NCBI RefSeq assembly: GCF_000576425.1
Contig: NZ_KK069991.1
Span: 1 to 64,000 of the forward strand
Direction: 5' to 3'
DNA from: Brachybacterium phenoliresistens
Lineage (GTDB): Bacteria > Actinomycetota > Actinomycetes > Actinomycetales > Dermabacteraceae
DNA length: 64,000 nt
Below are positions 32,179 through 38,683 of this stretch, piece by piece. Position 1 is the first letter of the stretch. Every line of letters starts with the position of its first letter. The position numbers and the translations under genes were made by a program. Below the pieces are notes generated by a model, which worked only from the letters and a program-made list of their open reading frames with translations, did no database searches and was not told where the DNA came from.

Positions 32179-32958
32179 ATGATCCGCATGCGCACCGACA
32201 TCTTCGCCGAATCCCTCGGCATGGGCACCAGCCTGACCGTGCTGATGCCGCAGGCGGCCGCCGGCATCGGCATGGGCGGGGACGACGCCGCCCCGGCCCA
32301 CGGCGACGGCGTGCCGGTGCTGTACCTGCTGCACGGGCTGAGCGACGACTGCACCATCTGGGAGCGGCGCACCTCGATCGAGCGCTACGCCAGCGAGAAG
32401 GGCATCGCCGTGGTGATGCCGCAGGTCGGGCGGTCCTTCTACTGTGACGAGGCGCTCGGCGAGGCGTACTGGACCTACCTCTCCGAGGAGCTGCCCCAGC
32501 TGCTCGCGCGGACCTTCCGGATCTCGACGGCCCGCGAGGACACCTTCGTGGCCGGGCTGTCGATGGGCGGCTTCGGCGCGTTCAAGCTGGCCCTGAACCA
32601 TCCCGAGCGCTTCGCCGCCGCGGCGAGCCTGTCCGGGGTGGTGGACCTCGTCGCCCTCGAAGGCCTCGACGTGCATCAGGGGCATCTGGCCGAGCGGATC
32701 TGGGGCGGGAAGCGCCCCGATGGCACCCAGGACGACCTGGTGGGGCTGCTGCGCGCGGCCGATCCGGAGTCGCTGCCGGCCCTCTTCCTCGACTGCGGCA
32801 CCGAGGATCCGCTGGTCATGCTGAACCGGGGCTTCATCGCCGCGGCGGAGGAGAAGGGCGTGGCGATGCAGTCCCGCCTGCGCCCGGGCAACCACACCTG
32901 GGACTTCTGGGACACCAGCATCCAGGACGTCCTGGACTGGCTGCCGATCCGCGCCTGA
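32179..32958 (+). CDS. Esterase-D-like alpha/beta hydrolase
   Basis: This 259-residue protein is a putative esterase of the esterase D / S-formylglutathione hydrolase type. The oxyanion segment is LYLLHGLSDDCTIWERRTSIERYA, the nucleophile elbow GLSMGGFGAFKLAL near residue 130, an acid in DCGTEDPL near residue 209 and the His in PGNHTWDFWD near residue 238. It has no signal peptide. Substrates could be S-formylglutathione-like thioesters or simple acyl esters. The ATG at 32179 follows AGGAGG. It is divergent from the GH13 gene and followed by a strong hairpin. Confidence 0.87.
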   Translation: MIRMRTDIFAESLGMGTSLTVLMPQAAAGIGMGGDDAAPAHGDGVPVLYLLHGLSDDCTIWERRTSIERYASEKGIAVVMPQVGRSFYCDEALGEAYWTYLSEELPQLLARTFRISTAREDTFVAGLSMGGFGAFKLALNHPERFAAAASLSGVVDLVALEGLDVHQGHLAERIWGGKRPDGTQDDLVGLLRAADPESLPALFLDCGTEDPLVMLNRGFIAAAEEKGVAMQSRLRPGNHTWDFWDTSIQDVLDWLPIRA

Positions 32959-32987
32959 GGGGATCCCGCCCGCGTGCCGCCGGCGCC

Positions 32988-33030
32988 GTCGACCGGGGCC
33001 GCGGCTCGCGGTCTGCGGGCCCCGGCCGAC
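32988..33030 (+). terminator. Hairpin after the esterase gene
   Basis: GTCGACCGGGGCC (32988-33000) pairs with GGCCCCGGCCGAC (33018-33030) with one mismatch. It ends the esterase transcript before the attenuator of the next gene. Confidence 0.6.
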
Positions 33031-33062
33031 GGACGTCGGGTGCGGCGGGGCGGGGCGTGCGC

Positions 33063-33068
33063 TACGAT
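33063..33068 (+). promoter_or_regulatory. -10 box (TACGAT) of the aro leader transcript
   Basis: TACGAT is followed by 6 nt and the GTG of the leader peptide at 33075. The identical hexamer with the same spacing serves the minus-strand starts at 31996 and 53328. Confidence 0.55.
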
Positions 33069-33074
33069 CGCCGC

Positions 33075-33134
33075 GTGATCGATCGTCGCTATGCGTATGA
33101 CTGCTCGGCTCTGGAGGGGCCGCAGCGGGCATAG
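33075..33134 (+). CDS. Tyrosine-codon leader peptide of the DAHP synthase attenuator
   Basis: A 19-codon frame runs from GTG at 33075 to TAG at 33134 and reads MIDRRYAYDCSALEGPQRA. It contains a Tyr-Ala-Tyr core with both tyrosines as TAT, a rare codon in this GC-rich window. The frame starts 6 nt after a TACGAT box and has no ribosome site, so it would be a leaderless leader peptide. Its last codons overlap a stem that can pair with sequence just before a strong terminator. Stalling at the tyrosine codons should change the pairing and let polymerase into the DAHP synthase gene. Tyrosine as the signal is inferred from the codons and the pathway. Confidence 0.7.
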   Translation: MIDRRYAYDCSALEGPQRA

Positions 33135-33182
33135 ACGCACGCCGACTTCCAGAGCCACAGGGCAGAGCGAACGCTCTGCCCT
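33107..33182 (+). promoter_or_regulatory. Transcription attenuator: alternative stem plus terminator
   Basis: GGCTCTGGA (33107-33115) can pair with TCCAGAGCC (33148-33156). The terminator stem is AGGGCAGAGC (33159-33168) with GCTCTGCCCT (33173-33182), 10 bp closed by a GAAC loop. A further GGCTCTGCGC at about 33198-33207 could compete for the GCAGAGC strand. The leader peptide frame covers the first arm. Confidence 0.65.
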
Positions 33183-33236
33183 TCGCCGTTTCCGGCGGGC
33201 TCTGCGCAGGGTCCGCCCCTCTCCCAGGAGCAGACC

Positions 33237-34373
33237 ATGACCCCTCTCGACACCACCGCCCCCGCCGCGCCCGCCGTCCCCGCTGCGCCCGCCGTCGCCG
33301 TCGGCACCGAGGACCTGCACGTCGCCGCCTTCACGGAGCTGCCGACCCCCGCGCAGGTGCGGGCCGAGCTGCCGGCCGAGCCCACCGACGTCGCCCTCGT
33401 GCGCCGCACCCGCGAGGAGGTCCGCGCCGTGCTGCGCGGCCAGGACGACCGCCTGCTGGTGATCGTCGGCCCCTGCTCCATCCACGATCCCGAGGCCGGT
33501 CTCGACTACGCCCGTCACCTGGTGGGGGAGGCGATCGGCCACCGCGACGACCTGCTGGTGGTCATGCGCGCCTACTTCGAGAAGCCCCGCACCACCGTCG
33601 GCTGGAAGGGCCTGATCAACGACCCGCGCCTCGACGGCAGCCACGACATCGCCACCGGCCTGCGCCGCGCCCGGGCGTTCCTGCGGGACGTCGTCGGGCT
33701 CGGGCTGCCCTGCGCGACCGAGTTCCTCGAGCCGATCAGCCCGCAGTACACGGCGGACCTCGTCTCCTGGGGAGCGATCGGGGCGCGCACCACCGAGAGC
33801 CAGATCCACCGCCAGCTCGCCTCCGGGCTGTCGATGCCGATCGGCTTCAAGAACGGCACCGACGGCGGGCTGCAGGTCGCCATCGACGCCCTCGGCGCGA
33901 GCGCCGCCCCGCAGTCCTTCCTCGGCATCGGCGCCGACGGCCGGGCGAGCCTGGTGACCTCCACCGGCAACCCGGACACCTCGGTGATCCTGCGCGGCGG
34001 CGCCGACGGCCCGAACTACGGCCCTGAGCATGTGCGCGCCGCATCCGAGCGCCTCGCGGCGGCCGGGCGCAGCCCCCGGCTGATCATCGACGCGAGCCAC
34101 GCCAACAGCGGCAAGGACCACGAGCGCCAGGCCGTCGTCGCCCGCGAGATCGCCGCCCAGGTCGCCGAGGACGGCTCCGCCATCAGCGGCGTCATGCTCG
34201 AGAGCAACCTGCTGCCCGGAGCGCAGACGCTCGACGTCGCCGCCGGCCCCGCCGCGCTGGTGCGCGGCCGCAGCGTCACCGACGCCTGCATGAGCTGGGA
34301 CGAGACCGCCCGGATCCTCGAGGACCTCGCCGCCGCGGTGCGCCGACGTCGCCTCGGCGGTCCCGCCGCCTGA
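33237..34373 (+). CDS. aroG: 3-deoxy-7-phosphoheptulonate (DAHP) synthase, class I
   Basis: This 378-residue enzyme condenses phosphoenolpyruvate and erythrose 4-phosphate, the first step of the shikimate pathway to Phe, Tyr and Trp. It is the AroF/G/H type I. The VGPCSIHDPEAGLDYARHL motif has the metal-binding Cys. RAYFEKPRTTVGWKG, GLPCATEFLEPISPQY, SMPIGFKNGTDG and IIDASHANSGKDH follow in the usual order. An Ala/Pro-rich stretch precedes the conserved part. The ATG at 33237 has CCAGGAG as ribosome site. The upstream attenuator with tyrosine codons suggests this is a tyrosine-responsive isoenzyme. The exact paralogue letter (aroF or aroG) cannot be decided. Confidence 0.92.
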   Translation: MTPLDTTAPAAPAVPAAPAVAVGTEDLHVAAFTELPTPAQVRAELPAEPTDVALVRRTREEVRAVLRGQDDRLLVIVGPCSIHDPEAGLDYARHLVGEAIGHRDDLLVVMRAYFEKPRTTVGWKGLINDPRLDGSHDIATGLRRARAFLRDVVGLGLPCATEFLEPISPQYTADLVSWGAIGARTTESQIHRQLASGLSMPIGFKNGTDGGLQVAIDALGASAAPQSFLGIGADGRASLVTSTGNPDTSVILRGGADGPNYGPEHVRAASERLAAAGRSPRLIIDASHANSGKDHERQAVVAREIAAQVAEDGSAISGVMLESNLLPGAQTLDVAAGPAALVRGRSVTDACMSWDETARILEDLAAAVRRRRLGGPAA

Positions 34374-34507: not shown

Positions 34508-34846
34508 TCACTCTCCCGGTGCGGGGCTCCCGGAGGGCCGGTCGTGCTCGCCCGGTGCGGGGGCCGCGGCGGCGCGGTCGGCGTGGCCGAGGGAGCGGCC
34601 CGGGGCGATGAGGTCGCGGACCCGGCGCTTCAGCTCGGAGATGTCGGGGAAGCCGCCGTCGCGCTTGCGGTTCCACACGTGCGCGCCGTCCACGTCGATG
34701 CGGAAGACGCCGCCGGTCGCGGGCACCAGCGCGATCTCGCCGGCCTCCTGCTCGAAGGTCTGCAGCAGCTCGCCCTGGTACCACTGGGCGCGCAGCAGCC
34801 AGCGGCACTGGGTGCAGTAGGTGATGACGATCCGCGGCGCAGGCAT
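34508..34846 (-). CDS. SelT/SelW/SelH (Rdx)-family thioredoxin-like protein
   Basis: This 112-residue protein has the Rdx fold signature, IVITYCTQCRWLLRAQWYQGELLQTF, with Cys11-x-x-Cys14 as the redox pair. Selenocysteine is not used here because both positions are ordinary TGC. GGVFRIDVDGAHVWNRKRDGGFPD is the conserved second half. A low-complexity tail of about 25 residues follows the domain. It is cytoplasmic and likely has a redox role, although bacterial members are poorly characterised. The ATG at 34846 follows CACCCT by 6 nt, so it is probably leaderless. The preceding 130 bp (34374-34507) shows only partly repeated GACCGGGG(T/C)C sequence. Confidence 0.82.
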   Translation of the reverse strand: MPAPRIVITYCTQCRWLLRAQWYQGELLQTFEQEAGEIALVPATGGVFRIDVDGAHVWNRKRDGGFPDISELKRRVRDLIAPGRSLGHADRAAAAPAPGEHDRPSGSPAPGE

Positions 34847-34888
34847 GCGGCCAGGGTGCCACATGCCCGCGCCGCGCGAGGCAGGGGG

Positions 34889-36154: not shown

Positions 36155-36574
36155 TCACACACCCAGCTGGAGGCGCTTGGCCTCCACGGCGATCTCGGCC
36201 TGACCTGCGACATCATCGGCATCGGCCCCGGAGGCGGCGGTGACGACCGCCCCGACCAGGCCCTCGACCAGCGGTGCGAAGGTGAGGTGGACGCGGCCCT
36301 CGAGCTCCGGGTCGAGGAACTCCAGCGCCGTCTGCGCGGAGAGGATCGCGGAGCCGAGGTCCATCAGCACGACGACGCCCTGGTCGTCGGCGGCGGCCTC
36401 GATGGCGGCGCTGATCGCGGCGGCATCGGTGCCGAGGGCGGTGCCGCCGCCCGGCTCCTCGATGCCGGCGGCGATCTCGATGCGCGGGGCGCCGTCGCGG
36501 ACCATCTGCAGGGCGAGGTCCGCCGCCGCCTCGGCCAGCGCGCGCGAATGGGAGACGACGACGATCCCGGTCAT
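36155..36574 (-). CDS. dhaM: Dihydroxyacetone kinase phosphotransfer subunit DhaM (EIIA domain only)
   Basis: This 139-residue protein is an EIIA-Man-like domain. His9 in VVVSHSRALAEA is the phosphorylated residue, and GTDAAAISAAI and VVLMDLGSAILSAQTALEF are standard DhaM motifs. It accepts phosphate from HPr and passes it to ADP bound in DhaL. Unlike the E. coli protein it has no HPr or EI-like domains, so general PTS proteins must exist elsewhere in the genome. Its ATG at 36574 overlaps the dhaL stop (ATGA). It is the last gene of dhaK-dhaL-dhaM. Confidence 0.9.
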   Translation of the reverse strand: MTGIVVVSHSRALAEAAADLALQMVRDGAPRIEIAAGIEEPGGGTALGTDAAAISAAIEAAADDQGVVVLMDLGSAILSAQTALEFLDPELEGRVHLTFAPLVEGLVGAVVTAASGADADDVAGQAEIAVEAKRLQLGV

Positions 36575-37239
36575 GCCGATCCCTCCTGCCCGGCGACGGT
36601 CTCCGCCAGGGCCTGCCACAGCAGCGCGGTGGAGGCGGCACCCGGGTCGACGTGCCCGATGGAGCGTTCGCCCAGGTAGGAGGCGCGTCCCTTGGAGGCC
36701 TGCAGGGGGGTCGTGGCCTCGCGGCCCTGCTCCGCCCCCTCCGCTCCGGCGCGGACGGCCGCGGCGAGGTCCGATGCGTCCTCGCCGGTGGACGCCTGCT
36801 CGAAGGCATCCAGGGCGGGCGCCCACGCGTCGAGCATGGTCTTCTCGCCGACGGTCGCCTTGCCGCGCTGCTCGATCCCGCCGACCCCGGCGCGCAGGGC
36901 GGCCAGCAGGTCCGCGGCATCCAGCTGCGTGGCGCCGGGCTGGGAGGTGCCCAGGCGCAGGAAGAACGTCCCGTACAGCGGGCCGGAGGCGCCGCCGACG
37001 CTCGAGACCAGCGTCATGCCGACCTTCTTCATGAGCGCGGGGATGTCGGCGAACTCCTCGGCGTCCAGGGCGGTGACCACGGCGGCGAAGCCGCGCTTCA
37101 TGTTGCTGCCGTGGTCCGCGTCGCCGATCGCGGCATCCAGCTCGTTCAGCGCGGAGACGTGCTCGGCCAGCAGCGTGCTCGATCGGCGCAGCCAGGCGGC
37201 GAGGTCCGATGGGGTCAGGGCGGTGAGGGCGTCGGCCAT
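36571..37239 (-). CDS. dhaL: Dihydroxyacetone kinase ADP-binding subunit DhaL
   Basis: This 222-residue subunit holds the ADP that shuttles phosphate from DhaM to dihydroxyacetone in DhaK. DAAIGDADHGSNMKRGF carries the aspartates that bind the two Mg ions. VGGASGPLYGTFF and GEKTMLDAWAPA are further family motifs, and SYLGERSIGHVDPGAAST closes the domain. The ATG at 37239 lies 5 bp after the dhaK stop, with AAGGGG upstream. The gene overlaps dhaM at its end. It is normal in length for the family. Confidence 0.92.
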   Translation of the reverse strand: MADALTALTPSDLAAWLRRSSTLLAEHVSALNELDAAIGDADHGSNMKRGFAAVVTALDAEEFADIPALMKKVGMTLVSSVGGASGPLYGTFFLRLGTSQPGATQLDAADLLAALRAGVGGIEQRGKATVGEKTMLDAWAPALDAFEQASTGEDASDLAAAVRAGAEGAEQGREATTPLQASKGRASYLGERSIGHVDPGAASTALLWQALAETVAGQEGSA

Positions 37240-37244
37240 GGCGA

Positions 37245-38243
<999 letters not shown>

Positions 38244-38683
38244 GCCCACGACGCTACCGCGAGACGTGAGCGCCGTCACCCAGTTCCGAGGGGCGGGTCC
38301 GGGGGTTTCGCTGCTCGCGAGAGCCGGGCGAGAGCCGGGCAAGAACCGCGTGAGCGCCGGGCAAGAGCACGGGAGTGACGGTGGGCGAGGGAAGAAGGGA
38401 TCGGGGCAGAGTCCGGTGAGGACCCCGGGTCATCTGTTCCGGGGACTCGAGAAATTGCAGGCTCCAGAGCCACTTCGGCGATGAAAGTGGAACAAAACGG
38501 GACAATCGCTGGAACGCCCCGGGAGGCGTCTCGTCCGCCGGTCGCGACGCCCAGGACGAAGGCCCGAGGTGCGCCTGTCGTCCTCGTGCCTGGGGGACGC
38601 GTGCTGGTCCTCCCCAGGGGACTGCGCTCCACATCGGAGCACCATGACTGACCGGGGCGGGGACCGGCGCCTAGCGTCGGAGC
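38244..38683. other. Gene-free gap between dhaK and an AbiEi-like gene
   Basis: No convincing gene lies in these 440 bp. It contains imperfect direct repeats of GAGCCGGGC(G/A)AGA at about 38320-38370. A lower-GC patch lies around 38445-38515 (including GAGAAATTGCAG and GTGGAACAAAACGGGACAAT), where regulatory sites for dhaK would be expected. Inverted repeats around 38560-38630 (CCTGGGG/CCCCAGG) are also present. Both flanking genes begin next to TAGCGT boxes at its two ends. Confidence 0.5.

Follow-up and report, generated by a model that had tools for sequence, protein, structure and literature searches.

Known Leader Peptides and the Locus

The closest described counterpart of the element considered here is the aroR leader of aroF in Corynebacterium glutamicum, in which a Phe-Tyr-Phe run precedes a class I 3-deoxy-7-phosphoheptulonate (DAHP) synthase gene (Neshat et al. 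2014, via PMC4046766 and PMC11802643). According to work cited in a review (PMC11802643), aroF is reported to be under transcriptional attenuation, with a response to Phe but none to Tyr. This paper concerns a leader with tyrosine codons in front of the class I DAHP synthase gene of Brachybacterium phenoliresistens. It lies in a stretch of 64,000 nucleotides (nt; contig NZ_KK069991.1, positions 1 to 64,000), called the window throughout. Like the Corynebacterium locus, the window has a frame with aromatic codons 5' of a class I DAHP synthase gene.

Leader peptides without an untranslated leader of their own are already on record, among them leuL, trpL and ilvL of Streptomyces lividans (PMC8079986) and, by a cited title, the one of ilvBNC in C. 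glutamicum (PMC4046766). The Trp, Leu and Ilv leaders of Streptomyces and Corynebacterium (PMC1262725, PMC8079986) resemble the window leader in their short frames, several of them leaderless, in codons that match the pathway and in alternative stems, and differ from it in genes and sequences. The initial annotation of this DNA had expected a tyrosine sensor with a leaderless leader peptide to be a distinct variant. Since such leaders are known, leaderlessness alone does not set this one apart.

A 2005 survey of Actinobacteria reports that Phe and Tyr operons were not seen to be preceded by conserved RNA structures (PMC1262725), and a set of eight leader peptides in S. lividans includes none for DAHP synthase (PMC8079986). 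The uORFC-13-1 motif before Acholeplasma aroF (PMC8632094) also joins a short frame with one or more Phe codons to a terminator before DAHP synthase; as described, it is set apart by its occurrence only in Acholeplasma and environmental sequences, its ribosome-binding site and its reading of Phe only. In another actinobacterium, Mycobacterium smegmatis, stalling on an upstream open reading frame of the cys genes is mentioned as acting at the level of translation (PMC13236596), a likeness by description to a system that senses cysteine. In a literature search, made mostly without subscription papers and on partial texts, no actinobacterial leader other than that of C. glutamicum aroF was named for DAHP synthase. 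The search did not return an element of this kind outside Corynebacterium, a sensor for three amino acids, a relay through segments F and G (Table 1) or a leader before tyrS, and priority for these is not certain. C. glutamicum aroR and the Trp, Leu and Ilv leaders are known already.

The Leader in the Window

We propose, with a rough probability of 0.5, that the leader is a ribosome-mediated attenuator of the DAHP synthase gene, in which a choice between the stems A:C and C:F is relayed to a hairpin holding the Shine-Dalgarno sequence. Its frame has 19 codons (M I D R R Y A Y D C S A L E G P Q R A), two of them TAT, and starts 6 nt past a TACGAT box, just as first annotated. No other frame of this kind (a TANNNT box, 5-8 nt, an ATG or GTG start, 10-40 amino acids and two of W, Y or F within 3 codons) occurs on either strand of the 64 kb. 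The transcript would presumably start at or beside the leader GTG. A consensus scan of 32400-33800 listed neither promoters nor terminators. TAT is scarce in the window (3 TAT versus 41 TAC in seven long open reading frames taken as genes), which bears out the remark of the initial annotation.

Table 1. Features of the leader region of the DAHP synthase gene, in window coordinates
Feature	Position	Strand	Description
Weak -35 hexamer GTGCGG	33040-33045	+	17 nt 5' of the -10 box
-10 box TACGAT	33063..33068	+	6 nt (CGCCGC) 5' of the leader start
Leaderless leader-peptide frame MIDRRYAYDCSALEGPQRA	33075..33134	+	GTG start 33075-33077, TAG stop; conserved in relatives
Segment 33085..33096	33085..33096	+	seen in the minimum-free-energy fold; z -0.2 in the window copy
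Regulatory codons TAT GCG TAT (Tyr-Ala-Tyr)	33090..33098	+	TAT at 33090-33092 and 33096-33098
Segment A	33107..33117	+	pairs with B (33116-33122, extended hairpin) or C
Segment C	33146..33156	+	alternative partners A and F
Constant hairpin D:E	33159..33182	+	10 base pairs (33159-33168:33173-33182), tail TCGCCGTTTC, terminator-like
Segment F	33194..33204	+	nearly repeats A (GGCGGGCTCTG); alternative partners C (33150-33156) and G
Segment G	33208..33217	+	pairs with F or joins the Shine-Dalgarno hairpin
Shine-Dalgarno hairpin	33210..33236	+	contains AGGAG 33226-33230
Class I DAHP synthase gene	33237..34373	+	378 amino acids, start ATG 33237

The leader as a whole (33075-33242) folds to -83.2 kcal/mol (z -3.53), and 0 of 200 shuffles were as good. 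The arm 33107-33115 had been predicted to pair with 33148-33156, and it does so inside the 11-pair A:C stem (33107-33117:33146-33156, one G-U), in a region (33107-33156) of -27.3 kcal/mol and z -4.34. The D:E stem is likewise present, and its reading as a terminator needs qualifying: the tail has 4 T in 10 and lacks the strong run of U that a canonical terminator carries. A:C and D:E, moreover, have no base in common and stand 2 nt apart, so this is not the textbook swap of terminator and antiterminator, and the shared strand of classical trp-type attenuators is absent. Of the attenuator that had been annotated, the aromatic leader peptide and the alternative stems are supported, with stems that only abut.

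Downstream of D:E lie structures that the initial annotation had missed. Closing C:F over 33150-33204 gives -38.8 kcal/mol and z -6.41, with the contribution of D:E counted in. F:G is a perfect 10-base-pair hairpin (33194-33217; -16.8 kcal/mol, z -3.79). The Shine-Dalgarno hairpin is weaker (-10.3 kcal/mol, z -2.13, a fold that 8 of 200 shuffles match); its pairing with G keeps 4 of 6 pairs in the register of the relatives, and the hairpin is rebuilt in another. Segment F and the Shine-Dalgarno hairpin suggest a translational output in the clade of the window. Set against the Corynebacterium type, the window shares A:C close to D:E and the 8-nt codon spacing of those leaders, with its gap of 2 nt, and differs in reading Tyr only, in its weak tail and in having F, G and a Shine-Dalgarno hairpin; in Corynebacterium the terminator is canonical and C:F pairing is absent on average.

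Conservation of the Frame and Its Codons

Comparison with related genomes had been set beforehand as a check on the leader; in the relatives the Tyr codons are retained and the stems covary. Among 38 genomes of the genus, all 20 that carry the gene have the leader, at 83.1-106.5 bits (seven of the 20 are in the training set of the model), and the 18 without the gene gave two weak matches below 24 bits. The genus is assigned to Brachybacterium from upstream sequences that several of its loci have in common with named records of that genus (L007 with L025 and L014 with L031, for example). The family model was built from 36 sequences, the window copy among them. Farther afield, the leader precedes the gene in 68 of the best 80 named loci out of at least 586 relatives; it was not found in the other 12, of which nine are labelled as outside Actinomycetota and three as Nocardiopsis or Thermobifida. 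Among those of the 80 loci that bear an actinobacterial name, only these three (L065, L081 and L083) gave no leader. Of 61 Corynebacterium genomes, 15 carry the gene, and the leader stands in 14 of those 15 loci. At E <= 0.01 the model gave matches, some of them weak or partial, in 63 of 297 genomes at the level of the order and in 17 of 396 at that of the phylum; the filters of this search lose weak matches, and the counts are per genome and give no rate per gene. No Rfam family (T-box, riboswitches, amino acid leaders) reached its gathering score in the window or ten related loci.

Two loci stand out by themselves. L055, titled Sporosarcina beigongshangi (a Bacillota name), has a typical Arthrobacter-type leader and gene and is likely mislabelled or contaminated. 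L098, from Mycolicibacterium houstonense, has two leader copies (1770-1891 and 2796-2917) about 1 kb apart, each scoring 67.5 bits.

A script that required a -10 box at 5-8 nt and a GG..C core found 123 leaders, 104 of them distinct. TANNNT stands 6-7 nt before the start in 103 of the 104, a leaderless spacing that is partly the result of the 5-8 nt required. Among the peptides, MQNRWFTYA.. is typical of Brachybacterium, MTNRWYAYF.. of Microbacterium and Arthrobacter, ..RWYWRF.. of Streptomyces, ..YWRF.. of Mycobacterium and MFVQRFYF.. of Corynebacterium. Trp, Tyr and Phe occur together in 93 of the distinct leaders, Trp and Tyr in eight, Phe and Tyr in two, and Tyr alone in one, that of the window. 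One of 14 further Corynebacterium leaders, L203 (genome G904; MLSNRQYYPQAPG..; MLSNRQYYPQ..), also has Tyr as its sole aromatic residue and also precedes DAHP synthase. The tyrosine sensor that had been annotated is therefore upheld in its Tyr codons, which the relatives keep, and proves too narrow for the family, whose sensor usually combines Trp, Tyr and Phe.

The core of A comes 8 nt after the start of the last aromatic codon in 79 leaders and 11 nt after it in 22, which accounts for 101 of the 104. Leaders use TAT 149 times and TAC four times, TTT 89 times and TTC 16 times, and the DAHP synthase genes show the opposite preference (TAT 9, TAC 474, TTT 19, TTC 701), so the remark on TAT holds across the family. 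Such strict use of TAT and TTT in high-GC genomes makes the choice of synonymous codons in attenuators, an old question, testable.

The window copy could be taken for a decayed leader that has lost its Trp and Phe codons, whose promoter and Shine-Dalgarno pairing have weakened and whose regulation is gone. In keeping with this, no copy in the genus is scored lower by the model (83.1 bits; the other 19 genomes, 90.8-106.5), its -35 is weak, and G forms four of six pairs with the Shine-Dalgarno strand in the usual register. Yet A:C, D:E, C:F and F:G are intact, the last a perfect hairpin, both Tyr codons remain as TAT, and the Shine-Dalgarno hairpin was rebuilt rather than lost, all of which makes decay improbable. 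In a tree of 45 DAHP synthases, the sister of the window protein is a seven-member group in which five carry the name Microbacterium (support 94/88, under the star of the tree program); 18 other proteins from the genus of the window form a group (100/99) outside which it falls. The corresponding codons in Microbacterium relatives are TGG TAT GCG TAT TTT/TTC, and the comparison of their RWYAYFE with RRYAYDC in the window fits the tree: a single lineage replaced Trp by Arg and Phe by Asp and kept both Tyr codons. To judge from these sequences, the window copy would have come by transfer from a Microbacterium-type lineage or be an old copy shared with that lineage.

Covariation and the Probable Output of the Switch

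For the stems nearest the frame, 42 leaders were prepared, and six divergent ones (L056, L058, L084, L090, L095 and L099) were dropped from alignment A1, which was used for covariation and for the model. In A:C and D:E, 95.5% of 849 cells are paired, with 69 two-sided changes against 21 in shuffles, a level that 0 of 500 shuffles reached, and slid controls pair at 39-57%; this control leaves relatedness in. A compensated A:C is seen, for example, in Corynebacterium L204 (GGCTTCGGC:GCCGAAGCC). That the whole is an ordinary 5' untranslated region with chance hairpins and an untranslated leader is very hard to credit, given conservation and covariation in many genera. The conserved frame, its aromatic codons and their sensing, A:C and D:E are well supported.

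A more serious rival is a transcription attenuator only, in which D:E is a weak intrinsic terminator, A:C sterically hinders its closing when the ribosome stalls, and neither F and G nor the Shine-Dalgarno hairpin plays a part in the control. The spacing of the stems speaks for it: among the 114 of 118 leaders placed in a survey of gaps and tails, the gap between A:C and D:E is 0 in 80 and 0-2 in 105, despite a distance from stop codon to C of 5-58 nt. So do the T-containing tails past E in many clades, the canonical terminators that Corynebacterium has with the same A:C and D:E, and the control of C. glutamicum aroF, which is reported to be transcriptional. Against it, A:C and D:E lack the common base of a textbook exclusion, the window tail is poor in T, and the C:F signal, found in every clade class except Corynebacterium, would have no role. 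We regard this rival as rather unlikely; steric block, as the way for A:C to hinder an abutting terminator, is a guess.

The C:F signal itself comes from several surveys. Its z is -2.5 over 78 leaders (the survey of C partners and of segment 33085..33096 covers 76 of 78), and across 110 leaders its mean z is -1.6 to -2.9 in each of six clade classes versus +0.07 in 15 Corynebacterium leaders. Across 22 clades, C also prefers its own downstream region to those of others, the difference being -2.5 kcal/mol (p 1e-4 by permutation), in a test that used one leader per clade, L163 with C misplaced, and did not correct for relatedness. C:F is accordingly supported as an alternative pairing outside Corynebacterium. 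For segment 33085..33096, the z values by clade are -3.5 in Microbacterium, -2.8 in Arthrobacter, -1.9 in Corynebacterium and +0.2 in Brachybacterium.

In 33 chosen Micrococcales leaders (alignment A3, Kocuria left out), F:G is present in all 33 with 5-7 pairs; 97.8% of its cells are paired, four changed on both sides, and 0 of 500 shuffles did as well. The Shine-Dalgarno hairpin, which shares G with F:G and is mostly GGGTCC:GGACCC in the relatives, is less strictly kept, with 86.7% of cells paired, three showing two-sided changes (a count that 18 of 500 shuffles reached) and a best slid control of 67.5%. Across all clades both stand out little from shuffles (z -0.6 for F:G and -0.4 for G with the Shine-Dalgarno strand), and they overlap in 94% of cases versus 90% in shuffles; 78 of 104 leaders were placed for this test, in which the segmentation of Micrococcales was poor. 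Because F competes with the Shine-Dalgarno hairpin, the output outside Corynebacterium is probably translational. The tails after D:E have 6.4 T in 10 in Corynebacterium versus 3.8 elsewhere, and the T-rich tails without a mean C:F signal there, set beside F and the T-poorer tails of other clades, point to one sensor joined to two outputs. Two designs on one sensor would permit a direct comparison of transcriptional and translational attenuation.

Proposed Mechanism and Its Folding

In the proposed attenuator, transcription would start at or next to the GTG, and a ribosome would load on the leaderless frame and read TAT-GCG-TAT. When charged tRNA-Tyr is scarce, the ribosome would stall at the Tyr codons and leave A free to pair with C once C is transcribed. 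With A:C formed, F would be free to pair with G, the Shine-Dalgarno hairpin would be blocked and DAHP synthase would be made (the ON state). When tyrosine is plentiful, the ribosome would instead cover A, and C would pair with F around the constant D:E, leaving G for the Shine-Dalgarno hairpin (the OFF state). The stalling, an output through F:G and the Shine-Dalgarno hairpin, and any additional termination or pausing of transcription at D:E are what we infer.

One variant, which overlaps this relay, has two outputs: D:E would pause or partly terminate transcription so that the ribosome catches up, and the relay would then set translation. D:E does form in both predicted states, it sits between C and F, and its tail is similar across clades; even so, we think the variant rather unlikely.

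Folding at equilibrium lends the relay uneven help. The minimum of the free window leader is the proposed OFF state, with S0:Z, A:B, C:F around D:E, and the Shine-Dalgarno hairpin. Without a ribosome, a forced ON state (A:C, D:E and F:G) is 2.7 kcal/mol worse than OFF, and once a ribosome occupies the first Tyr codon it is 1.3 kcal/mol better. Two results tell against the relay: with the ribosome at the second Tyr codon ON is 3.1 kcal/mol worse, and across relatives (33 and 54 chosen leaders) the results are mixed and the output step is not established. In window transcripts that end at E, the two stalls give A:C a probability of 1.00 and 0.83, against 0.79 for free RNA and 0.00 with a ribosome over A; the means for 104 leaders are 0.75 over all stalls, 0.74 free and 0.00 over A. 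What makes the difference is thus whether the ribosome has stalled or has advanced onto A. For the switch to work, C would have to pick its partner while it emerges, and the argument is a kinetic one.

A wider proposal can be made tentatively, at somewhat less than even odds. Most actinobacteria with the gene would share one leaderless sensor for any of Trp, Tyr and Phe, with its signal passed about 100 nt downstream, past the constant hairpin, by strand exchange (A:C, F:G and a free Shine-Dalgarno sequence, or the opposite set S0:Z, A:B and C:F). The output module would be exchanged between clades, being mostly the translational relay and in Corynebacterium the canonical terminator, and the lineage of the window would have narrowed to tyrosine, matching a tyrS leader in the same genome. 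If this is true, entry into the shikimate pathway in many actinobacteria, producers of amino acids and antibiotics included, is set by one RNA switch that reads three aromatic tRNAs.

A Second Leader Before tyrS

The tyrS leader is the second match of the model in this genome (contig C19:26726-26844, minus strand, locus L148, 42.5 bits), and it precedes an accessory tyrS gene (TIGR00234, 265.7 bits). Its frame, MSSRAVTYPPALVAAGGA, is leaderless with one TAT and has the same A:C/D:E design. This type of tyrS is present in nine of 38 genomes of the genus (E 1.1e-104 or better), and at least eight of the nine genes (L148 and its relatives L169-L175) have a leader with tyrosine codons. Seven of these eight leaders take the form ..DY(P/R/L)(H/Y)GS... 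A:C has 8-9 of 9 pairs in seven aligned rows, D:E has 10 of 10 in all eight, and the Shine-Dalgarno stem has 6-8 of 8 pairs in six of the eight.

Genomic Setting

The product of the gene at 33237 matches TIGR00034 (aroFGH) at 449.3 bits, above the cut-off of 173.2, and is the sole match to that model in the 4.19 Mb genome. The nearest gene-like frame 3' of it lies on the opposite strand. The adjoining gene, at 34508-34864 on the minus strand, encodes a SelT/SelW/SelH family protein (TIGR02174, 68.3 bits). Farther on, the minus-strand reading frames at 36155-38342 resemble what we take, from the look of the sequence, to be a dihydroxyacetone kinase cluster.
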